A DNA stretch of 38,451 bases, from the IMG/VR virus record IMGVR_UViG_3300013131_005212, positions 1 to 38,451 of that record; one strand, written 5' to 3'. Source of the DNA: a virus. Shown piece by piece: positions 1 through 14,504 of the stretch (positions are counted from its first letter, which is position 1; every line of letters begins with the position of its first letter). The notes under the pieces are model-generated. The model made no database searches and was not told the DNA's origin. It saw only the letters and a program-made list of their open reading frames with translations. The translations under genes were made by a program, and so were the position numbers.

Positions 1-116
1 TCAACGATAGAGAACCTATATGTGAAAATGTAGAACACTCTATAAAGTGTTTCTTGGGAACGAGGATAGATTATCTGTATTTCCCGGAATTCTCTCTAAT
101 CTTAAAGAGAAAATGA
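1..116 (+). CDS. 3' end of an unidentified protein (5' truncated by window edge)
   Basis: Reading from base 3, 37 sense codons run without interruption to a TGA at 114-116. The last residues read YFPEFSLILKRK. The stop overlaps the ATG of the next gene as ATGA (113-116), the same junction used repeatedly downstream. This supports a real gene end rather than chance. Too little is visible to assign a family. From context it is probably another member of the glycan cluster. Confidence 0.6.
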   Translation, partial: NDREPICENVEHSIKCFLGTRIDYLYFPEFSLILKRK

Positions 117-1045
117 AAGTATTTTTCAACAGAAAACTACGTAGAAATCCTTGGGGTGGCGGAATACATTTCGCGACAGGCCTTGCTGACTTCCTTGAAA
201 GCCAAGGACATAAAGTTGTTAACTCATATGACCATGATGTAGATGTCATACTGATGTTAGATCCTCGTGATGACGAGGGATTTGGAAGTGTCCACCATAT
301 ACTGCAGTTCAAACAGTGGCTAAACAGAAGTGGAAGAAAAGTAAAAGTAGTTCATAGGATCAACGACACTGACATTGCCAGAGGAACTAACTTTTTAGTT
401 GACTTAAACATCAAATCAAACGACGTAGTAGCAGATGAAACAGTCTTCATTAGTAATTGGCTAAAAGAACACTATCAACAGCACGGCTTCAACAGAAGTT
501 CCCATGTCATAACCAACGGATGCAACCATGAATGGTTCTATCCAGTGAATCAAGAAAAGAAAGATGGACCTATAAAAGTCGTCACCCATCACTGGTCTGA
601 CAACTACAACAAGGGTTTTGACGCTTACATTGAATTGGATAAACAACTTGCCAACAGGAAAGACATTCAGTTCACTTACATTGGTAGATACTACAAGGGC
701 TACAATCCCACAAACACGAAGATAGTAGCTCCTTTGTACGGTAAAGAGTTAGGTGACGAATTGAGAAATCATGATGTCTACTTAACGGCGGCTCGTTGGG
801 AAGCGTGTGGTATGCATCATATAGAAGCATCTTCCTGTGGTCTACCTGTCGCATATCACTTTGAAGGTGGTGGTGTCAATGAAGTTTGTAGACCGCATGG
901 TGTAGAATACAAAGACATCACAAAAATATGCGACGTAGTACTGAACACTTTTAATAGAAGGAAAGAACTTGTATCAAAGATACAGTACGACAGCCTCAGT
1001 AATGCCTCCGCCAATACCAAGTTTTTGTCGATATTTGAATCATGA
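113..1045 (+). CDS. GT4-like (GT-B) glycosyltransferase
   Basis: A protein of 310 residues that probably transfers a sugar from a nucleotide sugar to a glycan acceptor in the cytoplasm. The start is set at ATG 113 rather than an upstream GTG at 47, because 113 overlaps the preceding stop as ATGA and has AAAGAGA just upstream, and the protein then begins MKVFFNRKLRRNPWGGG. That N-terminus, with its Gly-rich acceptor-side loop, is typical of GT-B enzymes. The middle part has the pattern of a GT4 inter-domain region (VFISNWLKEHY, then a conserved HVITNGCNHEWF). The C-terminal donor domain has HHIEASSCGLPVAYHFEGGG, equivalent to the family's E-rich donor-binding loop. It overlaps the next gene by 4 bases. 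The exact sugar is not predictable. Confidence 0.8.
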   Translation: MKVFFNRKLRRNPWGGGIHFATGLADFLESQGHKVVNSYDHDVDVILMLDPRDDEGFGSVHHILQFKQWLNRSGRKVKVVHRINDTDIARGTNFLVDLNIKSNDVVADETVFISNWLKEHYQQHGFNRSSHVITNGCNHEWFYPVNQEKKDGPIKVVTHHWSDNYNKGFDAYIELDKQLANRKDIQFTYIGRYYKGYNPTNTKIVAPLYGKELGDELRNHDVYLTAARWEACGMHHIEASSCGLPVAYHFEGGGVNEVCRPHGVEYKDITKICDVVLNTFNRRKELVSKIQYDSLSNASANTKFLSIFES

Positions 1046-1980
1046 AAATTATAGCAATAACTCCTGACAGAAAGAGAGATTACACTACCGAGCAGACACT
1101 CGAAGGTCTCAAGCAGTTAGGATGTGAAATAATGGCTTCCGATGTTGGCAATGGAATACAAAAAGCCTATGCTGAAGAGCAGTTGCTAAATGAAAAAAAT
1201 GTCGATGCGGTGATTGCATTTTTTGGTAAAGTGAGAGACAATCGACAACCCAAGTATCATATTGCAAAATTACTGAAAGATAGATTACCGATAATCTATG
1301 TCGATGGAAGTGAGTGGACGTGCACTGGATATCCCACAAAAGATCAGCTAAAAGATTCGCTGGTTGATCCTGCAAAAAGAAGAGGAACGCCGTGGCTAAA
1401 TCACGAAATGTTGACACTGGCAAACTTCTATTTTAAGAGAGAATGTTACACCGAAGATTTAAGAAAAGGTATTAAGCCTCATCCTTTCTGCCTGACGCAG
1501 AGACACCTCATACAGTCAGATGAAAAAGATGTCGACCTGATGTGTGTTTTTGGTCAGACCACAACAGGATTGAGAAAAGAAGTAATGCAAATCTGCATGA
1601 AATTGAAACAAGAAACCAATTTTAACATAGTGGTGCAAGAGAACGTTGAACCCAACGAATATAGGCAATTACTAGCCAGGTCACGTATAATAGTAGATGC
1701 ATGGGGCGGAGGAGACACTTGTGATCGTTTCTATGAAGCAGTAGGCGCCGGTGCGTGTTGTCTGTACCAAAGATACAACATCGTGCAAGAGAATCCTTAC
1801 GAAGATTTTCAGTCTGCTGTCGAGTATTGGGATCCTGCATCTTTCTTAGAAAGAGTGAGCTTGCTGTTAAATTCCAAACAATTGTGCCTTAGAATAGGAG
1901 ACAGAGGAAAGCAGCATGCCTTGTCGTATCACACTTCAGAGTATAGAGCAAGAAAAATATTACAATTGTTATCGAGGTAA
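1042..1980 (+). CDS. CgeB-like GT-B glycosyltransferase
   Basis: A protein of 312 residues. The C-terminal half shows a GT-B donor-site segment (DAWGGGDTCDRFYEAVGAG) and a glycan-1-type ending in which Glu and Gly residues precede a short helix and a terminal YRARKILQLL. This layout resembles the CgeB/Glyco_trans_1_2 group, in which the N-terminal Rossmann domain is less conserved. It starts at ATG in an ATGA overlap with the preceding glycosyltransferase, so the two are probably co-translated. The function is inferred as glycosyl transfer in the same polysaccharide pathway. The sugar and linkage are unknown, and a non-catalytic GT-B fold cannot be excluded. Confidence 0.65.
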   Translation: MKIIAITPDRKRDYTTEQTLEGLKQLGCEIMASDVGNGIQKAYAEEQLLNEKNVDAVIAFFGKVRDNRQPKYHIAKLLKDRLPIIYVDGSEWTCTGYPTKDQLKDSLVDPAKRRGTPWLNHEMLTLANFYFKRECYTEDLRKGIKPHPFCLTQRHLIQSDEKDVDLMCVFGQTTTGLRKEVMQICMKLKQETNFNIVVQENVEPNEYRQLLARSRIIVDAWGGGDTCDRFYEAVGAGACCLYQRYNIVQENPYEDFQSAVEYWDPASFLERVSLLLNSKQLCLRIGDRGKQHALSYHTSEYRARKILQLLSR

Positions 1981-1983
1981 CAG

Positions 1984-2874
1984 TTGATTACATTTTGTGG
2001 ATTTTCTTATAGGAGCTCTGGTATCATCAGGGGCATGCAGCTTTCTCAGCGGTTGCCTGACGCAGATTTCCAAGATATTGATAGATTAGGTCATCAACGT
2101 CCAAAAAATGACGTCGTGTTGCATGTTAGAAAATTTGACAGCACGCATGCAGAGTATTGTAAATCCAAAGGACTAAAAGTAGGTTTCGATGTTGCAGATA
2201 ATCCTGTAACCGATTATCTCTATGGGAGAGTAAAGCAAGATGATTTCTCAAGATATGTTCATCCTGCAATAGATTTCTACATCGTCAATAACGATATAGT
2301 CAAGGGTAAGATATCTCAATACACGGACAAAAAAGTGTATGTGATACCGCATCACAATTGCAACTTTAAGAAAATTCACAACGAAAAAAGAAAACCAAAG
2401 AAATTAGGTTACATAGGGCTACCGGAACAGTCGATAAACTCTGACAAGATGAATTCATTTTGTAGAAAACTAGATATCACTTTTTCAACTGAAGATGTTA
2501 CTGAACACGCTTCTCTTGACTCCGCTTTCTCTAAGATAGACATTGGGTTGGTCTTTTTCGAAAAAGATTCATCCAAAAAAGATCTCCAAGAAAAGATATT
2601 GAACTATAAACCCGGCACAAAGCTTAGCAACTTTCAAAGTTATGGGATCCCAACAGTCTGTTTACCTTATGAGAGTTTTAAGCAATTCGGAGAAAATCAA
2701 TGTCGATACATTAACTTTATGAACGAATTAGAATTTGAAGTAGAAAAGCTGGTCAGAGATGAAGAATGGTACAACGACTTATCTCAAAATTCGATCCCGA
2801 TCGGCGAGAAATTTCACATAGACAATGTGGTTCAGTACTATAAAAAAATCTCAGAGGACATGAAGAATGAATGA
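1984..2874 (+). CDS. Probable GT-B glycosyltransferase, TTG start
   Basis: A protein of 296 residues starting at TTG 1984. A GAGG sequence at 1974-1977, six bases before the TTG, supports this start, and no better ATG exists nearby. The protein begins MITFCGFSYRSSGIIRGMQL, a beta strand followed by a Ser/Gly loop, as in GT-B acceptor domains. A second Rossmann-like strand follows at VLHVRKFDS and KVGFDVADNPVTDYLYG. The second half has YVIPHHNC, then KKLGYIGLP and KLSNFQSYGIPTVCLPYES, which resembles the donor-site loop of family 1/4 enzymes. The next gene overlaps it by 8 bases. It shares the MITF(C/Y)G opening with the glycosyltransferase at 12484, which suggests a common subfamily. Confidence 0.6.
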   Translation: MITFCGFSYRSSGIIRGMQLSQRLPDADFQDIDRLGHQRPKNDVVLHVRKFDSTHAEYCKSKGLKVGFDVADNPVTDYLYGRVKQDDFSRYVHPAIDFYIVNNDIVKGKISQYTDKKVYVIPHHNCNFKKIHNEKRKPKKLGYIGLPEQSINSDKMNSFCRKLDITFSTEDVTEHASLDSAFSKIDIGLVFFEKDSSKKDLQEKILNYKPGTKLSNFQSYGIPTVCLPYESFKQFGENQCRYINFMNELEFEVEKLVRDEEWYNDLSQNSIPIGEKFHIDNVVQYYKKISEDMKNE

Positions 2875-3646
2875 AAACATCCTCAGCAATATCGATTTTG
2901 GAAATTTAGCGAAAAAATTTCAAGGTGCGGAACCGTTCGACCATGTGGTCATAGACAATTTCTTAAACGATGATTTTGCCAGGAAACTTGTTGATTGTTT
3001 CCCCCGGCCTGAAGAAAAATCGTGGTGGCAATATGACAATCTTCTTGAAAAGAAGCTGGCTTTCAACGACATCACACAACTACAGCCTTGCTTCTCTGAA
3101 TTCTTTTCATTCTTCAATTCTCCACAGTTTTTGATGTCGATGCAACTGTTGACAGGCATTGAAAATTTAAAAGCAGATTCTACTCTAATGGGTGGCGGTC
3201 TTCACTGCATAAAAACAGGTGGGAAATTGGATGTGCATCAAGATTTCAACATCCAAAAAGAATTAAACATGTTAAGGAAAGTCAACTTAATAGTTTATCT
3301 CAATGAAGACTGGCAGGAGGATTGGGGCGGCCATCTCGAATTATGGGACAAGGACATGCGCGTGTTGTGTAACAGGATTGCCCCGAGTTTCAATCGAGCT
3401 GTTATTTTTAGGACAGACATGGATTCAAATCACGGACATCCACATCCATTAACATGTCCTGAGAATAGAGTGAGAATGTCACTTGCAACTTATTACTACC
3501 TCGAAGACGACAAGATAGATTCCATTCCTTTCAAGTCTACTGTCTACAAAAAGCTGCCTGGTGAAGATGACAGTCTTGATGAATTAAGAGAATTGCGTAG
3601 CAAAGGCAGGCTCATTAACATGAAGACAGGTAAACAGGATGTGTGA
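2867..3646 (+). CDS. 2OG-Fe(II) dioxygenase (prolyl-4-hydroxylase-like fold)
   Basis: A protein of 259 residues with the double-stranded beta-helix iron ligands of 2-oxoglutarate dioxygenases. The HxD pair is H124/D126 in LDVHQDFN. The distal His lies in the cluster NHGHPHPL (H189, H191 or H193). R201 or R203 would bind 2-oxoglutarate (ENRVRMSLATYYY). The segment EDWGGHLELWD before the distal His is typical of the 2OG-FeII_Oxy_3 type. Such enzymes hydroxylate peptides, sugars or small molecules. In this cluster a modified sugar or lipid is the simplest substrate, but a virion protein is also possible. It overlaps both neighbours by 8 bases. Confidence in the family is high. The substrate is unknown. 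Confidence 0.85.
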   Translation: MNENILSNIDFGNLAKKFQGAEPFDHVVIDNFLNDDFARKLVDCFPRPEEKSWWQYDNLLEKKLAFNDITQLQPCFSEFFSFFNSPQFLMSMQLLTGIENLKADSTLMGGGLHCIKTGGKLDVHQDFNIQKELNMLRKVNLIVYLNEDWQEDWGGHLELWDKDMRVLCNRIAPSFNRAVIFRTDMDSNHGHPHPLTCPENRVRMSLATYYYLEDDKIDSIPFKSTVYKKLPGEDDSLDELRELRSKGRLINMKTGKQDV

Positions 3647-4370
3647 GAATGTAGCGATAATCACATACACAACATCGAAATACAAAGATGTTTGGGACAT
3701 GCATTTCGGACAATTGACTCTTCACGCATCAGCTTTAAAGAGTTATGCTTTTTCTGATGAAGAATCTCTTCCTCTATGGAAGCATGATGATCATAAATTA
3801 ATTTGCTATAAAAACAACGAAGATTACTGGAAGCAATACACTACGTGTTTGCAGGACGTCACGGAAGATTTTGTCATATACTCACAAGAAGACTTCATCC
3901 TCTTTTCAGATGTCGATGTCGATGCAATAGAAAGATACAAACAATTACTTTCTAATTCGACATATGATTATGTTCGATTGATTCGTTGTGGATATTCAAC
4001 ACTTCTTACGAATCCTGTCGCCGATGACATCTACGAAGTTGACATGAAAACTTCTGATGCATTCTCAATGCAAGCTACACTTTGGAAGAAAAGCTCTCTT
4101 GAAAGATTGTATGCCTATGTTAAGTCTCAAAAATGGTTAGAGTCGGAGGCTTGGAATAGTGGAGCTCGTGATTTAAAAGTGAAAGGAACTTTCATTTACA
4201 ATGGTGAGAGAAAAATTGGTGCATTTCACTACGATTCTAAAGTGTATCCCTACGTCTGCACTGCCATCAATCGAGGCAGATGGAATGTCGACCAGTATCC
4301 TGATGTGATGACTAACTTATTTGAAAAATACAAAGTTGATCCTACAATCAGAGGCATCAGAGTAAGATGA
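3639..4370 (+). CDS. Putative GT-A-like sugar transferase, family not recognised
   Basis: A protein of 243 residues. It opens with a short beta strand (VAIITYTTSKY) and has an acidic segment, VIYSQEDFILFSDVDVD, near residues 80-95. That segment resembles the metal-binding DxD region of GT-A enzymes, where a QED or DVD triplet coordinates the nucleotide sugar. The following DYVRLIRCGYST and FSMQATLWKKSSLERL segments recall the acceptor-side part of small phage and bacterial glycosyltransferases. It overlaps the preceding oxygenase by 8 bases and the next gene by 4, so it is part of the same translationally coupled run. I do not recognise a named family. Confidence 0.5.
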   Translation: MCENVAIITYTTSKYKDVWDMHFGQLTLHASALKSYAFSDEESLPLWKHDDHKLICYKNNEDYWKQYTTCLQDVTEDFVIYSQEDFILFSDVDVDAIERYKQLLSNSTYDYVRLIRCGYSTLLTNPVADDIYEVDMKTSDAFSMQATLWKKSSLERLYAYVKSQKWLESEAWNSGARDLKVKGTFIYNGERKIGAFHYDSKVYPYVCTAINRGRWNVDQYPDVMTNLFEKYKVDPTIRGIRVR

Positions 4371-5161
4371 AGATCTATAGCTTAATTTTTGATTACAACA
4401 TCTCAAAAATGAAAGAGACAGGTCGTCCATGGGCCGAGACAGCATACAAGAATACAGATTTCATCTTCACGTATTCCGCTGCATCAATAGCGACATTTTT
4501 ACACCATAATCCTCACTTAAAGTATGAAGTGCTGACAGACAATGTTGAGCTGCTGGCACAAAAAGTTGAGCCTTACAAAGTAAACAAGTCTAACTTAAAC
4601 ATAGTAGATTCAAAAGAATTAATACGAAGTTGGTCATCGCACTGGTATTGCTTTTGGCCGCTTATCGCATCGTTCGATCATCAGTTGCAAAAACATCCTG
4701 AAGGTGTTCTTAAACTCGATAATGATTTGACCTGTTTAAAGACAATAGACGGCTTACTTGATCACAAAGGAGCGATTGTCTGGAAAAGAGAAAGAAATTG
4801 CAAGGATGGTCGTGACTATTGGGGTGAGAAGTACGCAGCGCATCATGCATTTGGAATCAATGATTTTGAGATCTACAACACGGGCACATGGGGATTGTCT
4901 GCTCAGTACACACAACTTGGGCGTGCAATTCCATCTTTGTGCGAAAAGATGATATCGGTTGACGTTTCTTCGGTCTTAAAATTCCCTGAAGCTCCCCACG
5001 TGAAATCGAAAGTATTTAACACTAGCGATCAAGTGTCAAATTGCTTTTTCTTGCATGATTCTAAAATTCCAATAGTAGAATCTAATAACTGGTTCGAACA
5101 CCATTGTTATGGTCATGACGCAAAAAAGGTCTGCATACAAAGAGCAGAACATTTATTATGA
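4367..5161 (+). CDS. GT-A type glycosyltransferase with DxD motif
   Basis: A protein of 264 residues. The key feature is KLDNDLTC, giving D118-N-D120 as the likely metal/nucleotide-sugar binding DxD. It is preceded by a helix and a Trp-rich stretch (SHWYCFWPLIASFD) that resembles the GT8/GT32-type region lining the donor site. Downstream, FEIYNTGTWGLS fits the usual acceptor-binding loop after the DxD strand. It begins with ATG in an ATGA overlap and ends in another ATGA overlap, so it lies mid-operon. The likely role is addition of one hexose to the growing glycan. The specific sugar is unknown. Confidence 0.65.
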   Translation: MKIYSLIFDYNISKMKETGRPWAETAYKNTDFIFTYSAASIATFLHHNPHLKYEVLTDNVELLAQKVEPYKVNKSNLNIVDSKELIRSWSSHWYCFWPLIASFDHQLQKHPEGVLKLDNDLTCLKTIDGLLDHKGAIVWKRERNCKDGRDYWGEKYAAHHAFGINDFEIYNTGTWGLSAQYTQLGRAIPSLCEKMISVDVSSVLKFPEAPHVKSKVFNTSDQVSNCFFLHDSKIPIVESNNWFEHHCYGHDAKKVCIQRAEHLL

Positions 5162-5904
5162 AAGTTGCGATACTTGTCTGCGGATTACCAAGGACTTTTA
5201 AAGTTGCATCAAAAACTTTCTCAAGAGCTTTTGGGCACTTGAACGCCGACACCTTTGTGCACACATGGCAAGTGCCTTTAAAGCCAAGCATCAAAATTCA
5301 CAAAAACATTGACAACGCAACGTTGCTATCTGCAGAAGAAATCAAACAGTGTTTCAATGCTTCTTCTGTCGTAATAGATCAGCAATCAGAAGACATTGAG
5401 GGATTGATAAAAGGTCATAATGAACCATATCCCAACAATGTCGTATGCTTTCATGAATCGATAAACAGATGTTTAAATTCTGTTAAAGAAGCCGAGAAAT
5501 ATGACCTCTTCATAATGACTCGACACGACATCTTCTATAAAGAGAGAATAACCCTACCAGACATTAAAGATGGAGAAGTTTGGACGCCTAGGATAAACAA
5601 TATCCATAGTGGGAAACAAATTCTGCAAAGAATGAAGAATGCCCACCCAGGATCAGTATGCGACATTGTTTATGGTGGGATATGTGTCGCAAAATTTGAT
5701 GAAATGAAATTACTTGGCAATTTCTCCAGAGAATATGTTTCTTTATGTCAAGACGAAAAGTATTTCCTATCAGGCAAGGTAGATTACTTTCCTGATAGAG
5801 CTTTGGCGATTTACTTAAAAAATGAAAAGAAACTTGCAGTTAGAGAATTCATTTTTAGACACGGAATTGTGAGAGAAGATCATGTCCAAGAATACTGTTG
5901 GTAG
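5158..5904 (+). CDS. Glycosyltransferase-like protein, paralogue of the 9147 gene
   Basis: A protein of 248 residues beginning MKVAILVCGLPRTFKVAS, followed by DTFVHTW and YDLFIMTRHDIFY. The gene at 9147 has the same layout (MKIAACISGHMRTYRETA, YDIFIHTC, YDLVIRLRPDTFF), so the two are divergent paralogues. This C(L/S)G-x-x-RT opening with a later R-x-D triad belongs to a group of small GT-A-like proteins common in phage and giant-virus glycan loci. The RHD/RPD triplet is a plausible DxD-like element. It begins in an ATGA overlap and its end overlaps the SGNH gene by 23 bases. The activity is inferred from the fold-like pattern and the neighbours. Confidence 0.55.
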   Translation: MKVAILVCGLPRTFKVASKTFSRAFGHLNADTFVHTWQVPLKPSIKIHKNIDNATLLSAEEIKQCFNASSVVIDQQSEDIEGLIKGHNEPYPNNVVCFHESINRCLNSVKEAEKYDLFIMTRHDIFYKERITLPDIKDGEVWTPRINNIHSGKQILQRMKNAHPGSVCDIVYGGICVAKFDEMKLLGNFSREYVSLCQDEKYFLSGKVDYFPDRALAIYLKNEKKLAVREFIFRHGIVREDHVQEYCW

Positions 5905-6625
5905 GCATACGAATATAGAAATATTTGGCAACAGTCATGCAGGCGTAATAACGGGTGCACCACCTTCAGGCACAGCCGTAAAAAAGCAGAAAGAGAAACC
6001 TCGTGGAAGAGGTTACACAGAAAAAAATCCGCTCTATCCTTTCAGGACTTGGTTTTTAGGTCCTGTTTTAGCCTACAATTTTTACGAGCATCATCTTCAT
6101 AAGATTTACGATCACATAAATGAAAACCCAAACTTCTTTAAAGGAGATGTCGTGTTGCTGCTGGCTGTTGGGGAAATAGATTGCAGGGTTCATTTACCGA
6201 AGTATGTAAGCAACGAAAGATCTGTTGAAGATGTTGTCAATGAATGTGTCACGAGATATCATAGATCACTTTTGCATCTAAAAACAAAAGGATACAAAGT
6301 GGCGGCCATGGGAGCCATACCCAGCCTTTGTGATGAGACTCTGCAATTGAAAATGACAGAGCACGAATTAAAAAATGATGTGTCTGGTAACACATGCACT
6401 CGCAACAAGATTGTTTCTGTGTGGGACGAAATACACTCAAACTATTGCAAAAGAGATGGAATACCTTACGTGTCGATTCATAAAAATTTGACAGATGAAA
6501 AAGGCATGACTAGAGAAGAGCTCTACTGCGACATCATACATTTGAGTCACGAGAAAACGATTGACTTTTGGGTATCTGCATTACAAGAAGCAGGAATATA
6601 CCAAAATGATAGTGGAGAGTCTTAA
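5882..6625 (+). CDS. SGNH/GDSL-family hydrolase or acyltransferase
   Basis: A protein of 247 residues with the blocks of the SGNH fold. Block I is FGNSHAG, with S18 as nucleophile. A block III-like turn is AVGEIDCR near residue 100. The terminal block is CDIIHLSH, with D217 and H220 completing the catalytic triad. Members remove or transfer acyl groups (often acetyl) on sugars, which fits the surrounding glycan genes. The ATG start lies 23 bases inside the previous gene, and no later start in frame precedes the Ser block. There is no signal peptide, so it should act in the cytoplasm. Whether it de-esterifies or esterifies cannot be told. Confidence 0.7.
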   Translation: MSKNTVGRHTNIEIFGNSHAGVITGAPPSGTAVKKQKEKPRGRGYTEKNPLYPFRTWFLGPVLAYNFYEHHLHKIYDHINENPNFFKGDVVLLLAVGEIDCRVHLPKYVSNERSVEDVVNECVTRYHRSLLHLKTKGYKVAAMGAIPSLCDETLQLKMTEHELKNDVSGNTCTRNKIVSVWDEIHSNYCKRDGIPYVSIHKNLTDEKGMTREELYCDIIHLSHEKTIDFWVSALQEAGIYQNDSGES

Positions 6626-6628
6626 TTC

Positions 6629-7756
6629 ATGCCAACAAGAAAAAATTGTGTTGTTTGTGCAGGTGAGGACTTAAAAGTTTTTTACACGATTCCTAATTTT
6701 CCTATTAGACTCGGTGTTGATGATTACAACGAAGTTTGCTCTACGTTGGACATGACATGGTCAGAATGCCAAAAGTGCGGATGTTCGCAACTGATAGAAC
6801 TGGTCGAGCTGGACAAGCTGTATGAAAAGCACCACAATGCATCAATAGGAGGTATGTGGGAAAGACATCACGAAGAACTATCCAGACATGTTTCTGAAAG
6901 TATTACCGGTGATGGTATAAAGATACTTGAGATTGGTGGAGCGAATCTTTTACTCGCCAATAAAGTTTGTAGCAAATCGTCACATTCTATTGGATATACC
7001 ATCGTCGACTTAGCGAGCGGTCAGTATGATGTGAAGGAGCACGATGAAAGAATTCATTTGAAATGTTTAAAGATTTCTGAATACGTTACAGATGAAAAAT
7101 TTGATGTCGTAGTCCACTCACACACTCTTGAACACTTTTACGACCCTGTTGAAACGCTGTTGATGCTGAGAGAATTTTTGAAAGAAGATGGGAAGATGAT
7201 CGTATCTATCCCAAACGTATCTTCACAGGTGCAAGCAGGACACCTAAACTCACTACACTTTGAACACACATACTATTATGACGATGTGTATCTCGATTAC
7301 ATGTTAAGCAGGTCAGGATTTGCAATAACAGAAGTGGTTCCATTTTCTAAGTGGAATAACTTCTACATTTGTAAGAAAGTAAAAATTGCAAGTAACCTCA
7401 ACTTGGTCTACAGGAATGAAAGTAAGCGAGACATCATTTCGATGATGACAAGTTTGAGAGAATTTGTGGAAGATGTGAAGAAAGTAGAAGGAAAAGTTTT
7501 TAGTTTTGGAGCACACATATTCTCTCAGTACCTCTTCTCATTTGGTTTGCATGAGAAGATGCAAGGAGTTCTGGACAATGACGTCACGAAAAATAAACAA
7601 GGCAACACGTTGGCTGGTACCAAAATACCTGTCTTTCCTGTTTCACATATAGAAAACTTGAACGCACCGACTGTTGTTCTTAAAGCGGCGCAGTTTTACG
7701 AAGAGATATCAAGGCAAATAATCGATACGAATAACACTGCTAAAATCTTGTGTTAA
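6629..7756 (+). CDS. SAM-dependent sugar C-methyltransferase
   Basis: A protein of 375 residues with the three-part layout of NDP-sugar C-methyltransferases. It has an N-terminal zinc-binding segment (C7, C10, C47, C50, plus C52), a class I SAM domain with motif I as ILEIGGANLLLAN near residues 97-109 and the HSHTLEHFYDPV strand-helix, and a C-terminal Methyltransf_14-like domain (SFGAHIFSQYLFSFGL, VLDNDVTKNKQGN). This arrangement is known from TylC3/Tcab9-type enzymes acting on keto-deoxysugars. GGAGAG at about 6614-6619 provides its ribosome site. Its C-terminal 27 residues have a decayed paralogue at 10454-10537, which makes this gene the intact reference for the scar. Confidence 0.85.
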   Translation: MPTRKNCVVCAGEDLKVFYTIPNFPIRLGVDDYNEVCSTLDMTWSECQKCGCSQLIELVELDKLYEKHHNASIGGMWERHHEELSRHVSESITGDGIKILEIGGANLLLANKVCSKSSHSIGYTIVDLASGQYDVKEHDERIHLKCLKISEYVTDEKFDVVVHSHTLEHFYDPVETLLMLREFLKEDGKMIVSIPNVSSQVQAGHLNSLHFEHTYYYDDVYLDYMLSRSGFAITEVVPFSKWNNFYICKKVKIASNLNLVYRNESKRDIISMMTSLREFVEDVKKVEGKVFSFGAHIFSQYLFSFGLHEKMQGVLDNDVTKNKQGNTLAGTKIPVFPVSHIENLNAPTVVLKAAQFYEEISRQIIDTNNTAKILC

Positions 7757-7767
7757 TCAATTGACGC

Positions 7768-9150
7768 ATGATAAAACTTGCAATATTCGACTTAGATGGA
7801 GTTGTGATCGACTTGAAAGAGTGCCACTTTGACTCTCTCAATTCTGCTTTGCTTAGTTTGCATCCAAAATATGTCATAGGAATCGATGAGCATTACAAGT
7901 TCTACGATGGTCTACCGACCATGAAAAAACTAAAAATGCTGACGAAGTATAAAGAGCTGCCAATGAGCTCATACGATCTTGTGATGAAAAGAAAGCAAGA
8001 TTACACGTTAAAATTCATATACAACAACGTTACTCCATCAAAAAATATCATTGAAACTTTTCAGTATCTTAAAGATCATGATGTGAACGTATGTGTGGCA
8101 AGCAATTCGGTGTCCAACACGATATACTCGGTACTGACAAAGTTAGAGATATTGCACCTTGTTGATAAAGTGTTTTCTAATCAAGATGTAAAACACCCAA
8201 AACCTAACCCAGAAATTTACTTCAAAGCAATTAGTCACTTTGGTGTTGTACCTGAAGAAACTTTAATAGCTGAAGACTCTCCTTACGGTCTTGAAGCTGC
8301 GTATCAGAGCGGTGCAAACGTCTATAGGGTGAGAAACTCTCATGACGTTACAATAGCCAATATCAAAAGTCAACTTGAAAAGTACTCAACTAAACCTTCT
8401 TCTTACAGATGGAAAGACGACAAGATGAATGTTCTAATACCCATGGCCGGCGCCGGTAGCAGATTTGAATCGGCAGGTTACGCTCTGCCAAAACCCCTAA
8501 TAGACGTGAGGGGTAAGCATATGATCAAACGTGTTGTTGACAACATAAATGTCGATGCAAAGTACACGTTTGTAGTACAGGAAAAACATGAAGAAGAACA
8601 CAAGGTAAGTGAAGTACTAAAAACTTTCGCGTCTCGGTGCAACATTGTAAAAACGGATGGCCTGACTCAAGGAGCGGCATGTACTGCATTGTTAGCCCAG
8701 GATCATATCGATAATGATGAACCATTGCTTATTGCCAATTCGGATCAATTCATCGAATGGGATAGCACACATTTTTACTATCAAACCTTGTCTCAACAAG
8801 AGATAGACGGATGCATACTAACATTCAAGTCGACTCATCCAAAATGGAGTTTTGCGAAGCTAGGCAGAGATGGTTACGTCACTCAGGTGGCTGAGAAGAA
8901 TCCTATAAGCGACGTCGCGACCGTGGGAATCTATTACTGGAAGAGGGGCTCCGACTTCGTCAAGTATGCGAAGCAGATGATAGAAAATGAAGTGCGAGTG
9001 AATAACGAATTCTACATCGCACCAGTTTTCAATGAAGCAATTCGTGATGGCAAAAAGATAACGACGTATAATGTCAGGAAAATGTGGGGATTAGGTACGC
9101 CTGAAGACCTGAATGAATTCCTGGATTCTTACAAAGAGTCTCTTCCGTGA
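7768..9150 (+). CDS. HAD phosphatase fused to sugar-1-phosphate nucleotidyltransferase
   Basis: A bifunctional protein of 460 residues. Residues 1 to about 205 are a HAD hydrolase of the beta-phosphoglucomutase/GmhB-like type: D8 and D10 in FDLDGVVID, a KHPKPNPEIY lysine motif and AEDSPYGLEA as the acidic motif IV. From M220 onward is a NTP_transferase domain with the signature PMAGAGSRFESAG followed by YALPKPLID (G-x-G-x-R and the Lys). The C-terminus, KMWGLGTPEDLNEFL, is the typical end of such enzymes. Dephosphorylation and nucleotide activation of one sugar could thus be coupled. An internal ATG at 8425 with GGAAAG upstream could also yield the second domain alone. The next gene starts in a GTGA overlap. 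Confidence 0.85.
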   Translation: MIKLAIFDLDGVVIDLKECHFDSLNSALLSLHPKYVIGIDEHYKFYDGLPTMKKLKMLTKYKELPMSSYDLVMKRKQDYTLKFIYNNVTPSKNIIETFQYLKDHDVNVCVASNSVSNTIYSVLTKLEILHLVDKVFSNQDVKHPKPNPEIYFKAISHFGVVPEETLIAEDSPYGLEAAYQSGANVYRVRNSHDVTIANIKSQLEKYSTKPSSYRWKDDKMNVLIPMAGAGSRFESAGYALPKPLIDVRGKHMIKRVVDNINVDAKYTFVVQEKHEEEHKVSEVLKTFASRCNIVKTDGLTQGAACTALLAQDHIDNDEPLLIANSDQFIEWDSTHFYYQTLSQQEIDGCILTFKSTHPKWSFAKLGRDGYVTQVAEKNPISDVATVGIYYWKRGSDFVKYAKQMIENEVRVNNEFYIAPVFNEAIRDGKKITTYNVRKMWGLGTPEDLNEFLDSYKESLP

Positions 9151-9887
9151 AGATAGCGGCATGCATATCAGGTCACATGAGGACCTATAGAGAAACAGCT
9201 GAGTCTCTACACGAAAATCTTTTGAAGCCTCTTTCAGGTGGTGAGGAATACGACATCTTCATTCACACATGCCATGAAAATGACATGAGTTCAAACTGTC
9301 TGAAGAATCCTGAAAATTCTCCATTGAAACCAGTCCAGTTGAATGAAGAAGATTTGGCACTTATAGACAAACTTTACGAACCAAAGAAAATTTCATTCGA
9401 TCTCTCGACAGAAAAGACCGGACTAGGTCGACAACCCATGCTTCGAAGAATTGCCGCATGTGACAATCTTAGATTGCAATATGAAAAAGAAAATAACAAG
9501 AATTATGACCTTGTCATAAGACTGAGGCCCGACACATTTTTTGTAGAAAAATTCGAACCTATAGCCCTACAAGATAATGAAATAATATTCTTTAGTTATG
9601 GCAGGCATCACGGAGGGTACTACGATGGGTTTGCAATCGGCTCAGGTCAAGTGATGGAACGATATTCTGAAATGCATATGCATTCTGAAAAGATAAGAAT
9701 GAAACAAGAAGGCAATGGTCACATCAAGATAGAAAAAGTGTTAAAAGAATACATCGACTCCCTGGGATATAGGGCGATATTTTGTGACAAAGCTTCTTAC
9801 ACGCTGAGGTCATGGGGACAGAGATATACTTTTTTTGATCAAGACCCAGTGACCTGCAAATTTGTGCAAGGTAAAATACACGTATGA
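9147..9887 (+). CDS. Glycosyltransferase-like protein, paralogue of the 5158 gene
   Basis: A protein of 246 residues started by GTG 9147 inside a GTGA overlap with the upstream fusion gene. It opens with MKIAACISGHMRTYRETAES and has YDIFIHTC and DLVIRLRPDTFFVE, the same order of landmarks as the 5158 protein. The RLRPD segment is a candidate donor/metal-binding element. A later stretch, IIFFSYGRHHGGYYDGFAIG, matches the conserved substrate loop of this group, in which the enzyme tests whether a figure or acceptor is in place. Function as a glycosyltransferase is inferred, not proven. It ends in an ATGA overlap with the next gene. Confidence 0.55.
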   Translation: MKIAACISGHMRTYRETAESLHENLLKPLSGGEEYDIFIHTCHENDMSSNCLKNPENSPLKPVQLNEEDLALIDKLYEPKKISFDLSTEKTGLGRQPMLRRIAACDNLRLQYEKENNKNYDLVIRLRPDTFFVEKFEPIALQDNEIIFFSYGRHHGGYYDGFAIGSGQVMERYSEMHMHSEKIRMKQEGNGHIKIEKVLKEYIDSLGYRAIFCDKASYTLRSWGQRYTFFDQDPVTCKFVQGKIHV

Positions 9888-10351
9888 GACTGATAGCCCA
9901 CAGAGGCAATGTTGAAGGTCCTCGACCCAAAGACGAGAATCATCCTGAGTATTTACTGAATGCCATTGAAGAAGGCTTCGACATAGAAGTCGATGTATGG
10001 TGGTGGAGCGATCAATTTTACCTGGGTCATGATCAGCCGCAATGGAAGTTGAGTTCAAACGACATTCTGACGAGTGAGAGGTCATGGTGTCACGCAAAGA
10101 ACAGTCAAGCCCTAGAGATGCTTCTAAGAATAGGAAGCCACTGTTTTTGGCATCAAACCGATGATTATACCCTGACATCAAAAAATTACATCTGGACGTA
10201 CCCAGAAAAACAATTGATTTCGGTAGACATGTCAGTCTGCGTCACCAATGAAAAGCTTTTAAGTAGGCAACAGTTCTCATTACTGAAAAGCAGTTGTATC
10301 GCTGTTTGCAGTGACTATGTGAAATTTTTTAGAAATTATGAAGTACAATAG
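9884..10351 (+). CDS. Small glycerophosphodiester phosphodiesterase-like protein
   Basis: A protein of 155 residues, shorter than the roughly 230-300 residues usual for bacterial GDPD enzymes. It keeps the main catalytic pattern: H6-R7-G8 in LIAHRGN, E35 and D37 in DIEVDVWW, and H49 in FYLGHDQP. The C-terminal CIAVCSDYVKFF is the characteristic last barrel strand of a compact phage/bacterial subgroup. It may cleave a glycerol-phosphate or other phosphodiester in the glycan or its lipid carrier. The start is an ATGA overlap. The C-terminal CSDY signature reappears in the scar at 11356-11469, from a different paralogue. Confidence 0.7.
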   Translation: MRLIAHRGNVEGPRPKDENHPEYLLNAIEEGFDIEVDVWWWSDQFYLGHDQPQWKLSSNDILTSERSWCHAKNSQALEMLLRIGSHCFWHQTDDYTLTSKNYIWTYPEKQLISVDMSVCVTNEKLLSRQQFSLLKSSCIAVCSDYVKFFRNYEVQ

Positions 10352-10356
10352 CGGTC

Positions 10357-10482
10357 ATGTGGGCGACAACAGTTAACGTAAATCCTTATTTTGAAATATG
10401 CAAAAAAGCAGTAGAATCCGAAGAAGCATTCAGCAAGTCTAGAATCACAATATGTAATTTTAAAAGTTGCACAATTCTATGA
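10357..10482 (+). pseudogene. N-terminal gene stub (unrecognised protein) truncated by a deletion
   Basis: An open frame of 41 codons starting at ATG 10357, five bases after the previous stop. It begins MWATTVNVNPYFEICKKA and continues as amphipathic helix VESEEAFSKS, then turns into unrelated sequence and stops at TGA 10480-10482. The opening looks like the start of a real folded protein. From about 10450 the DNA encodes, in another frame, the end of a methyltransferase. I read this as the 5' remnant of a gene whose remainder was lost in a deletion that joined it to the next remnant. The protein family is not recognised. Confidence 0.55.
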
Positions 10483-10537
10483 TGAAATATCAACGCAAAT
10501 TTTAAAAATTAATTCTAAAACAAAAATATTACAATGA
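10454..10537 (+). pseudogene. C-terminal remnant of a sugar C-methyltransferase paralogue
   Basis: In the frame ending at TGA 10535-10537 the codons from 10454 encode VILKVAQFYDEISTQI followed by LKINSKTKILQ. The intact methyltransferase at 6629 ends VVLKAAQFYEEISRQI followed by IDTNNTAKILC. Sixteen of 27 positions are identical and there are no gaps. The terminator still forms ATGA with the start codon of the following WavE-like gene, exactly as in a functional operon. So only the last 27 codons of a divergent second methyltransferase survive. They are AT-rich compared with the intact copy, which argues against a recent local duplication. Confidence 0.8.
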
Positions 10538-11325
10538 AATTTTCAATCATCATTACTGGACCTTGGACAGCATGGACGAACGATTTGATTGAATCAGCTA
10601 GACAACATTATCCCGAGAGTCAACTGATATTTTCTACCTGGTCCGACCAGGATTTGAAAAATTGCTCACAAGTTGATAATTTATTAGTAAATGATGTATC
10701 GTTGATGACGAATTGTAATAATCATCAGCATTTTTCAAACGTATTTTTTTCATGCAAAGCCGGATTACAGATTGCTGAAGAGGCATACACGATTAGATTA
10801 AGATCTGATTTAAAAATCGTAAGTCCTTCTTTAAAGGATTATATGAATTATAGATTGGACAAAAATTGTAAAAAAGTTTGTATCTTTAAAGAAAAGATTA
10901 GATGCGTTAACTTAGGATCTCTAATGCATAGAGGTTATGCTTTTTATTTTGCAGACGTATGCCAGTCAGGTTTAACAGAAGATTTGATCAAATTTTTTGA
11001 TGTTGAATTACTTCCTAAAGATATGAAAAAAATTCAATATTTGATGCCAAATAGCACAAACCCTCACGAGTTAGGAAATGAGCACGCTGTTCCACTAATG
11101 TCTATAAAAAAATACTTGAATTATACGTTTATGTCTCCTAACTTTTTTTGTGAAAATGAAAGAAAATTTCATGATGACGTATTGATCAATAATTTTGTTT
11201 TGTTAGACATGATGAATGAATATGGATTAATTTGGAAAAAGCATCCAAATTATGGTATGGGCTCAGACGTATTGTATTACGATAGATTGTTTCAATCTAC
11301 TTTTCCAATAGTTGGCAACATGTAA
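10534..11325 (+). CDS. WavE-like LPS/surface-glycan synthesis protein
   Basis: A protein of 263 residues with the opening FSIIITGPWTAWTNDLIES, the strand QLIFSTWSDQD and the segment EAYTIRLRSDLKI. This order (TG-x-W, then STW-x-x-x-D, then an R-x-D strand) is characteristic of WavE-type LPS core/O-antigen proteins, thought to be glycosyltransferases. The RLRSD triplet resembles the metal/donor site. The gene is clearly more AT-rich than the neighbouring glycan genes and lies between two gene scars, so it probably came from a different source. Its ATG is overlapped by the stop of the methyltransferase remnant. No promoter is evident upstream. Confidence 0.6.
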   Translation: MKFSIIITGPWTAWTNDLIESARQHYPESQLIFSTWSDQDLKNCSQVDNLLVNDVSLMTNCNNHQHFSNVFFSCKAGLQIAEEAYTIRLRSDLKIVSPSLKDYMNYRLDKNCKKVCIFKEKIRCVNLGSLMHRGYAFYFADVCQSGLTEDLIKFFDVELLPKDMKKIQYLMPNSTNPHELGNEHAVPLMSIKKYLNYTFMSPNFFCENERKFHDDVLINNFVLLDMMNEYGLIWKKHPNYGMGSDVLYYDRLFQSTFPIVGNM

Positions 11326-11355
11326 CTTTACGACTGGGTGCTGTATCATACTAAA

Positions 11356-11469
11356 ATGATTAATCTAGTAGTCTTTGATATTGATGAAGTGACTTTCAAT
11401 TCACTGGGGAATAGCTGCCTAGGAATCTGTAGTGATTACGCAGCAAAATTAAAAATTTTCAATAACTAG
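11356..11469 (+). pseudogene. In-frame HAD N-terminus / GDPD C-terminus deletion chimera
   Basis: An open frame of 37 codons. Its start, MINLVVFDIDEV, matches the HAD opening of the 7768 gene (MIKLAIFDLDGV), including the two aspartates. Its end, SCLGICSDYAAKLKIFNN, matches the C-terminal strand of the glycerophosphodiesterase-like gene (SSCIAVCSDYVKFF at 9884-10351). The two pieces meet near codon 15-20 and share one frame. The simplest explanation is a deletion that removed everything between a HAD N-terminus and a downstream GDPD C-terminus. The 37-residue product cannot fold as either enzyme. It may still be translated, but I expect no catalytic function. Confidence 0.75.
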
Positions 11470-11471
11470 AA

Positions 11472-11496
11472 ACTTTACGTATAACAGCTGTAAAGT
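11472..11496 (+). promoter_or_regulatory. Inverted repeat with TATAAC in its loop, upstream of the GDP-mannose epimerase
   Basis: ACTTTAC at 11472-11478 is the exact reverse complement of GTAAAGT at 11490-11496. The 11-base loop contains TATAAC (11480-11485), which resembles the T4-type late promoter core TATAA. The gene start at 11513 follows, with GTGGAG at 11501-11506 as ribosome site. This is one of few real gaps in the window, so a promoter is plausible. The stem could be an operator or a transcript hairpin. Compare the stronger element at 16412-16439. Confidence 0.4.
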
Positions 11497-11512
11497 AGTC
11501 GTGGAGTAGTTT

Positions 11513-12487
11513 ATGAAAAAAGCTTTAGTTTGTGGCGCTGGGGGATTCATCGGATCACATCTTGTTAAGCGTTTGAAATCTGAGGGTTATTTCGTCAGGG
11601 GTGTAGATCTTAAAAAGCCTCAATTTTCACGTTCAGCATCTGATCAATTTATCATAGGCGATCTTAGAGATCCTAGGGTAGTAGATGATATTTTTTCTGT
11701 AAGTAGTGGAACTTTTGATGAGGTATATCAATTAGCTGCTGATATGGGTGGTGCAGGATATATCTTTACGGGTGAGAATGATGCAAACGTCATGCATAAT
11801 TCAGCAACAATTAACCTAAATGTTGCTTCAACTGCGATAACTTATCCAACTAAACCAAGGATATTTTATTCATCTTCTGCTTGCATGTATCCTGCGTATA
11901 ATCAGGATGATCCCTTGAATCCAAAGTGCTCAGAAGATTCAGCATATCCAGCTGCGCCAGACAGTGAATATGGTTGGGAAAAACTTTTTAGTGAACGTCT
12001 TTACCTTGCTTTCAGCAGGAATCACGGGCTGGATGTGAGGATAGCAAGGTACCACAATATCTTCGGTCCAGAAGGAACATGGACAGGTGGCAGAGAAAAA
12101 GCTCCTGCAGCGTTGTGCAGGAAAGTCGCAGAAACTACCTCTGGAGGTGTCATAGATGTGTGGGGTTCAGGTAGTCAAACGAGATCTTTCTTGTATATTG
12201 ATGAATGCGTAGAGGGAACACTACGCCTGATGCGTTCCAACTTCATAGGACCTGTGAACATTGGGTCCGATGAGATGATATCCATTAACGATCTCGTAAA
12301 GATGATAGCCAGAATATCTGGAAAAGACATAAAGGTGAACAATATCGCTGGACCGACCGGTGTTGCAGGTAGAAATTCTGATAACACTCTCATAAAGCAA
12401 AAGATTGACTGGGCACCATCACAAGGCCTTGAAGTAGGAATCAAGAAGACATACGAATGGATCAAAAAGATGGTCGAGAAGCCATGA
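11513..12487 (+). CDS. gme: GDP-mannose 3,5-epimerase (extended SDR)
   Basis: A protein of 324 residues converting GDP-D-mannose to GDP-L-galactose/GDP-L-gulose in plants and relatives. The NAD site is CGAGGFIGSH (G8, G11, G14). The active site has the SSACMYP strand and Y153-x-x-x-K157 in EYGWEKLFSERLY. Very distinctive of this enzyme are AADMGGAG, RYHNIFGPEGTWTGG followed by REKAPAALCRK, and QTRSFLYIDECVEGTLRLM. The length is close to the family's 320-370 residues. It would supply a nucleotide sugar to the surrounding glycosyltransferases. The 5' half is more AT-rich than the 3' half, a possible intragenic recombination. It ends in an ATGA overlap with the next gene. Confidence 0.9.
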   Translation: MKKALVCGAGGFIGSHLVKRLKSEGYFVRGVDLKKPQFSRSASDQFIIGDLRDPRVVDDIFSVSSGTFDEVYQLAADMGGAGYIFTGENDANVMHNSATINLNVASTAITYPTKPRIFYSSSACMYPAYNQDDPLNPKCSEDSAYPAAPDSEYGWEKLFSERLYLAFSRNHGLDVRIARYHNIFGPEGTWTGGREKAPAALCRKVAETTSGGVIDVWGSGSQTRSFLYIDECVEGTLRLMRSNFIGPVNIGSDEMISINDLVKMIARISGKDIKVNNIAGPTGVAGRNSDNTLIKQKIDWAPSQGLEVGIKKTYEWIKKMVEKP

Positions 12488-13458: not shown

Positions 13459-13472
13459 TAGTGAGCGCTAAC

Positions 13473-14504
13473 ATGAAGAAAGTCTTGGTGACAGGTGCGT
13501 CAGGTCTAATTGGTTCAGAAGTGACTCGATTTTACTTGTCAAAGGGTTACAAAGTCATTGGTGTCGACAACAACATGAGAATGAAATTCTTTGGACCTGG
13601 TGGTGACACTTCATCGGTCTTAAAGAGTCTTTCGCAAGACAAGAATTATTTGCATGAAAGCGTTGACATTAGGGATAGGATTGAAATCGAAAACATCTTT
13701 CAGGCGCACAGGCCTGACTATGTAGTTCACGCCGCGGCGCAGCCTTCTCATGACTTAGCAGCAAAGATACCTCATGAAGATTTTCACACGAACGCTGTAG
13801 GAACATTGAATCTACTCGAAGCTGCACGACGTTACACGAAAGACTCTCCCTTCGTGCATGTCAGCACGAACAAAGTTTATGGAGACACACCTAACAAACT
13901 CGAATTAGTGGAAAAAGACACGAGGTACGACTATGCAGACCAGCACTCTGATGGCATAGATGAATCGATGTCGATCGATCAGACAACTCATTCTCTTTTT
14001 GGTGCCTCTAAAACTGCTGGTGACCTATTGGCCCAAGAATACGGAAGATACTTCGACATGCCTGTTGGCGTTTTTAGAGGAGGTTGCTTGACAGGGCCTC
14101 AGCATGCTGGGGTCGAGCTGCACGGTTTTCTGTCCTATATCATCAAGTGTGCAGTCAGTAAAAAGCCCTACACGGTATTCGGTTACAAGGGCAAGCAAGT
14201 AAGAGATCAAATTCACTCTTACGACGTGTGCACAGCATTTCATGAATTTGTGAAAGCCCCAAGAGCAGGAGAAGTCTACAATATAGGTGGTTGCAGGAGT
14301 AACAGCGCTTCTATACTGGAAGTCATCCACACTCTGAGTGAAATGGGCCACGTGTTGCAATATTCCATAGTCGACACTCCACGAGTCGGGGATCACATTT
14401 GCTACATTAGTAACATGAAGAAATTCACATCTCATTATCCTCGATGGAGACATGAAAAAGACTTGAACACTACAATAAGAGAAATTGTAGATTCTTGCAA
14501 ATGA
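13473..14504 (+). CDS. CDP-paratose-2-epimerase-like SDR with Phe in place of the catalytic Tyr
   Basis: A protein of 343 residues from ATG 13473. A GTG at 13461 would add four residues but lacks a ribosome site, whereas GTGAG at 13461-13465 can serve the ATG. The NAD site is VTGASGLIGSE, and GVDNNMRMKFFGPGG is the signature following the second strand in CDP-paratose/tyvelose 2-epimerases. RGGCLTGPQHAG and GYKGKQVRDQIHSYDV are also diagnostic of this group. The YxxxK motif reads F176-G-A-S-K180, so the usual catalytic Tyr is Phe. I believe a subgroup in bacteria shares HSLFGASK. Role: interconversion of a nucleotide sugar. The exact substrate is uncertain. Confidence 0.75.
   Translation: MKKVLVTGASGLIGSEVTRFYLSKGYKVIGVDNNMRMKFFGPGGDTSSVLKSLSQDKNYLHESVDIRDRIEIENIFQAHRPDYVVHAAAQPSHDLAAKIPHEDFHTNAVGTLNLLEAARRYTKDSPFVHVSTNKVYGDTPNKLELVEKDTRYDYADQHSDGIDESMSIDQTTHSLFGASKTAGDLLAQEYGRYFDMPVGVFRGGCLTGPQHAGVELHGFLSYIIKCAVSKKPYTVFGYKGKQVRDQIHSYDVCTAFHEFVKAPRAGEVYNIGGCRSNSASILEVIHTLSEMGHVLQYSIVDTPRVGDHICYISNMKKFTSHYPRWRHEKDLNTTIREIVDSCK

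Follow-up and report, generated by a model that had tools for sequence, protein, structure and literature searches.

The closest described systems are the host-recognition or glycan islands of pelagimyophages and cyanomyophages (PMC7029224), which lie near structural genes in T4-like genomes, are rich in glycosyltransferases (GTs), and are non-syntenic among relatives. In pelagimyophages, such an island sits between VrlC and gp14. The authors of that work inferred that these islands change gradually, as gene cassettes are gained and lost, and are not replaced wholesale. For the GT at the center of the locus described here, the described counterpart is WavE of Vibrio cholerae (PF07507), whose family acts in the synthesis of the lipopolysaccharide core. 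The locus is an island of the same kind, and it differs from those in PMC7029224 in that leftover gene ends could be identified in it, so that single events can be read.

Genomic setting of the locus

The window, meaning the whole stretch of DNA that was analyzed, is a linear viral record of 38,451 bases (IMGVR_UViG_3300013131_005212) from an uncultured T4-like phage. It contains T4-like baseplate (wedge) genes, and GTs, epimerases, and methyltransferases (MTs) are abundant in its left half, based on Pfam matches. The contig begins within a carbamoyltransferase-like C terminus (positions 1 to 114; CFLGTRIDYLYFPEFSLILKRK, followed by a stop). The next gene therefore probably starts at an ATG near position 113 and not at position 47, where a GTG was assigned mechanically.

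Sister phages with syntenic flanks delimit a variable slot (Table 1). Contig L004 has in common with the window the genes at 47-5161 and those from 11513 onwards, at 57 to 75% identity. Both flanks of the slot are retained in L004 and in L279/L280 at 69 to 73% amino acid identity, while the slots hold two and four unrelated genes, respectively; the two in L004 are of methyltransferase type, as read from their sequence. In L003 and L013, a GT-like gene lies directly 5' of the epimerase, and the slot contents vary across L004, L279, L002, L003, and L013. The region is GT rich, non-syntenic among relatives, and part of a T4-like genome: it is a hypervariable slot of a glycan island.

Two side observations concern other contigs. 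In L279 (13157-14448), a UDP-glucose dehydrogenase gene is split by an intein-looking insert with an HNH-type endonuclease (C-terminal VVHNC). In L018 (8955-9310), a homologue of the epimerase at 13461-14504 in the window is truncated to its N-terminal part (about 113 amino acids), possibly another collapsed gene.

Table 1. Features of the variable slot and its right edge, with the evidence for each. Primes mark genes of the putative second module; GDPD, glycerophosphodiesterase.
Feature	Position	Strand	Evidence
Variable slot	5158..11512	+	Bounded by GT 4367-5161 and epimerase 11513-12487, syntenic in sister phages
Class I SAM methyltransferase (MT), Methyltransf_14 C-terminal domain	6629..7756	+	Pfam Methyltransf_23 and Methyltransf_14; relatives L148, S-SKS1, L159-L162
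HAD phosphatase-nucleotidyltransferase (NT) fusion	7768..9150	+	Pfam HAD_2 and NTP_transferase
GT-like protein	9147..9887	+	Pfam DUF7796
Short GDPD-like protein	9884..10351	+	AlphaFold and PDB structure matches
Stub, N terminus of NanM-type (TIGR04371-like) sugar O-methyltransferase	10357..10446	+	HMM
Stub, C terminus of second methyltransferase (MT')	10427..10537	+	HMM; TGA overlaps WavE ATG
WavE-family GT, intact, 263 aa, GC 31%	10534..11325	+	Pfam PF07507
Stub, N terminus of second HAD (HAD'), MINLVVFDIDEV...	11356..11409	+	Start-anchored score
Stub, C terminus of second GDPD (GDPD'), NSCLGICSDYAAKLKIFNN	11410..11469	+	HMM; in frame with HAD' stub
NAD-dependent epimerase, slot right edge	11513..12487	+	Pfam; conserved; 73% identical in L004

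The intact module

The slot contains an intact module at 6629-10351, in the order claimed by an earlier, sequence-only reading: MT, HAD-nucleotidyltransferase, GT, and GDPD-like gene, the first three placed by Pfam and the last by fold. The GDPD-like protein had no match in Pfam or NCBIfam. Its AlphaFold model has a pLDDT of 96, its best PDB matches are glycerophosphodiesterases (TM 0.48 to 0.62), and there is a weak profile match to the GDPD 7e0v; the name GDPD rests on this predicted fold. Together with its homologues, it forms a short GDPD-like family (about 140 to 155 amino acids) that is predicted to resemble a shortened GDPD barrel. Neither Pfam nor NCBIfam has a model for this family, although marine phages and SAR11 commonly carry it.

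Gene remnants on both sides of the WavE-like gene

We scanned the whole window for gaps of at least 70 nt between open reading frames of at least 80 amino acids. There are only two (10352-10533 and 11326-11512), and both flank the WavE-like gene. All six-frame fragments of both gaps were then scored with HMMs built from relatives, with 3,000 Markov shuffles as the null. Blind Pfam and NCBIfam scans of the short stubs gave zero matches, as expected at their length.

The MT' stub, assigned to a C-methyltransferase-type family, scored 29.8 bits, compared to 8.7 for the best of the 3,000 shuffles. It consists of the last ~35 residues only, and the catalytic SAM domain is absent. A blind tblastn search of 2.3 Gb of phage DNA with this stub returned a sole locus at E < 10, the C terminus of the homologue that Synechococcus phage S-SKS1 carries; its E value is 6, and the match is of value for its position. 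A DNA pattern for the MT C terminus, [AV]AQFY[DE]EI, gave two chance matches in unrelated proteins among the viral contigs and was set aside. The MT profile found three distant matches only in 50 bacterial genomes carrying HAD/NT. The stop codon of MT' (TGA, 10535-10537) overlaps the start codon of WavE (ATG, 10534-10536) as ATGA, an overlap also used elsewhere in the cluster (e.g., 9884-9887). The junction is thus native, and MT' and WavE were neighbors in one operon.

Preceding MT' is the O-methyltransferase N terminus, a piece missing from the inventory of the sequence-only reading, which had named the other stubs correctly. First spotted via L150 and L151, it scored 13.4 bits with a six-sequence HMM (null maximum of 12.5 among 3,000) and 11.2 bits with a profile built from four phage sequences outside the discovery set (1 of 3,000 nulls higher). 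Its full-length relatives match TIGR04371 by profile, and the relative in Sf-FS3 is named a sugar O-methyltransferase. Searches with this stub by tblastn in phages gave no match, a profile search of the viral contigs returned the two query loci only, and TIGR04371 matches in bacterial genomes were weak. The stub has an open frame of 41 codons, which differs from the frame of the MT' C terminus after it, and the broken join between the two lies near 10427-10446. Because its GC content is like that of the window (39%), unlike that of the AT-rich debris, it probably belonged to another gene.

On the other side of WavE, HAD' did not stand out by local HMM (3.6 bits, with top null values of 6.2 and 5.8), which is insufficient by itself, so its identity was taken from a start-anchored test. 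In that test, 44 of 125,059 start 12-mers scored as high, namely the stub itself and 43 with the HAD motif DxD[GS], as did 0 of 59,669 random start 12-mers. The start codon of the stub is at position 11356, and the stub spans 12 to 18 codons; it has the N-terminal DxD motif I in context (VVFDIDEV, with E in place of the usual G after DxD), and motifs II to IV are absent. GDPD' scored 13.6 bits, compared to 9.4 for the best of 3,000 shuffles. It carries the C-terminal GICSDY motif in the alignment (the C terminus in L087 has NCLGICSDYISKYK) and lacks the catalytic HRG...E-D residues. The broken join between HAD' and GDPD' lies near 11392-11410 and is in frame, giving a chimera with an open frame of 37 to 43 codons. 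A tblastn search of phages with the HAD'-GDPD' chimera gave one match, rejected as chance, and no full-length relatives of the chimeras were found there. The HMM, start-anchored, and Pfam tests therefore confirm the MT C terminus, the WavE-like gene, and the HAD/GDPD chimera that had been proposed downstream of the intact module, and the stubs match their named families better than shuffles or random 12-mers do.

The debris also differs in base composition. GC content, which has a wide error in stubs this short and is supporting evidence only, is 19% in MT', 29% in HAD', and 36% in GDPD', with WavE as in Table 1 and neighboring genes at 39 to 42%; the AT-rich stretch runs from about 10440 to 11400.

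The WavE-like gene

The window WavE matched PF07507 at 63.1 bits (cut-off, 27) and is thus in the same family as V. cholerae WavE by profile and by conserved residues, a placement made from sequence. Of the family-invariant residues, G9, S34, W36, S73, D92 (RSD), D141, and F221 are present, and Q8 is replaced by T. The predicted structure is GT-A-like at moderate confidence (pLDDT 63) and matches TarP/TarS and other GT-A enzymes (E values of about 1e-6 to 1e-5). The full-length frame and the retained conserved residues suggest that WavE is functional. No close relatives of it were found in the viral contigs or in phage records.

Comparable modules in other genomes

Gene order sets the debris apart from the intact module. 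The former reads MT-GT-HAD-(NT)-GDPD-epimerase and the latter MT-HAD-GT-GDPD, so the statement that the same order reappears does not hold: GT precedes HAD in the debris and follows it in the intact module. The debris order occurs intact in two phage contigs, L148 (MT-GT-HAD-NT-GDPD-epimerase) and L083 (WavE-like GT-HAD-NT-GDPD-epimerase). Both differ from the window in having HAD and NT as separate genes and an epimerase of another family; in addition, L083 has no MT before its GT, and the GT of L148 is of another family. The L083 GT aligned to the WavE profile with an hhalign E value of 2.3e-10; in Pfam, this GT scores below the WavE cut-off. Synteny thus yields complete genes in the debris order in two contigs, and no relative with MT-WavE-HAD-NT-GDPD at this position. 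These five genes occurred together in no single genome found, and the order is pieced together from several genomes.

In SAR11, Flavobacteriales, and other genomes, WavE genes lie directly beside HAD/NT and GDPD, often with overlapping ends. Among 99 distinct GDPD loci, HAD/NT immediately precedes GDPD in 22 and immediately follows it in 37. Based on these gene neighborhoods and the L083 order, WavE is a regular partner of the HAD/NT-GDPD module. An unrelated single-gene insertion of WavE was considered and dropped, since WavE adjoins HAD/NT-GDPD in many genomes.

Seven of the SAR11/Flavobacteriales clusters (L178, L188, L190, L191, L196, L212, and L215) have the same families adjacent and are AT rich (22 to 29% GC). 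They differ from the debris in their order, GDPD-HAD-WavE, in having no directly attached methyltransferase, and in their longer WavE proteins (about 375 to 407 amino acids), which are only about 18 to 27% identical to the window WavE. In these clusters, the WavE-family GT directly follows the GDPD-HAD/nucleotidyltransferase pair, mostly with overlap, and this forms a conserved glycan module in its own right. We found no description of a GDPD-HAD/NT-WavE glycan module.

Scars in other contigs

Leftover termini are not unique to the window. In L004 (1600-1735), only the first ~23 and the last ~22 codons remain of a carbamoyltransferase-like gene, named by sequence motifs and not by profile, and these two pieces are in different frames; the gene is whole in L002 (464-2098) and L013 (2036-3679), where it encodes 544 to 547 amino acids. 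In L083 (6548-6670), an N-terminal stub that is sulfotransferase-like by motif, not by profile (FVFIHVPKTGGSSI; KDKFVFIHVPKTGGSSIHISLKEIGM), lies between the WavE-like GT and HAD genes. A wider gap scan gave many further partial matches, which are unsorted and include ordinary short genes.

Origin of the remnants

It is likely that the hypervariable slot holds, beside the intact module, what is left of a second module, MT'-WavE-HAD'-(NT')-GDPD', which was AT rich and xenologous and was cut by about two deletions. The second module would have been acquired whole next to the intact one. One deletion would have brought the start of the O-methyltransferase gene up against the final ~35 codons of MT'. 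A second, of about 1.7 kb, would have removed the sequence from about codon 12 to 18 of HAD' to the last ~20 codons of GDPD', and WavE would have been left whole between both. We infer the exact junctions and the direction of change. In favor of this explanation are the stub matches, the native ATGA junction, the contrast in base composition, the intact modules of this order elsewhere, the different slot contents of sister phages, and the similar scars in relatives. Against it count the small size of the HAD' and GDPD' remnants and the need to combine several genomes to obtain the order. The sequence-only reading had likewise seen a second module, divergent from the intact genes, with WavE kept, and these points are supported. 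Its further view that the module is ancient is not, as the stub frames are uninterrupted by stop codons and the ATGA overlap persists; the divergence from the intact copy reflects xenology and not decay. The collapse by deletion that it proposed is the history that we favor, with one main rival.

That rival is the insertion of a fragment: an AT-rich piece running from the MT' C terminus through WavE to the HAD' N terminus would have entered by illegitimate recombination between the recipient's O-methyltransferase and GDPD genes, so that GDPD' would be the recipient's own and a full second module would never have been present. One double-junction event would be enough, and the extent of the AT-rich stretch, flanked on the O-methyltransferase side by sequence of 39% GC, fits. 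However, adjacent genes in the order HAD'-GDPD' are native to many genomes, and both this order and the in-frame join would have to be coincidence. The GC content of GDPD' (36%) is uninformative here. We therefore consider fragment insertion improbable, and less likely than acquisition followed by two deletions.

The other explanations are much weaker. It is very improbable that the stubs are genuine small genes or leaders with a regulatory role: the chimera and the O-methyltransferase stub do have open frames, but the pieces match the termini of catalytic families and lack their catalytic portions, MT' is not in frame with the start upstream of it, and the chimera has no full-length relative found in phages. 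If the window's own module had recently been duplicated in tandem and the copy had then decayed, this would account for the same families being adjacent and for MT' being about 50 to 59% identical to the intact MT C terminus, yet order and GC content differ from the intact module, and about 57% DNA identity at MT' with frames still open is too divergent for a recent copy, which makes this hardly credible. An assembly artefact, conceivable in a metagenomic record, is just as hard to credit, as native junctions are kept, composition shifts at the boundaries between gene families, and independent contigs have scars of a comparable kind.

Implications for phage glycan clusters

Under the favored history of acquisition and two deletions, the module would make a modified sugar and transfer it onto a host or virion surface glycan, with the precursor steps now performed by the intact upstream copy. 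WavE may have been kept because the intact module supplies these precursors. A more general rule, in which the redundant MT, HAD/NT, and GDPD of an incoming module are deleted and the acceptor-specific transferase is kept, is possible but doubtful. If it is true, the phage would gather transferases around one precursor pathway and shift its surface-sugar chemistry stepwise.

The scar in the window is a well-preserved, essentially ordinary trace of the known gain and loss of genes in phage surface-sugar clusters. The hypervariability of glycan islands is already known, but single events are usually erased; the leftover ends in the window and in two relatives record which genes went and their order. 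Scars of this kind lend themselves to systematic searches and could tell whole-module replacement from piecemeal loss.
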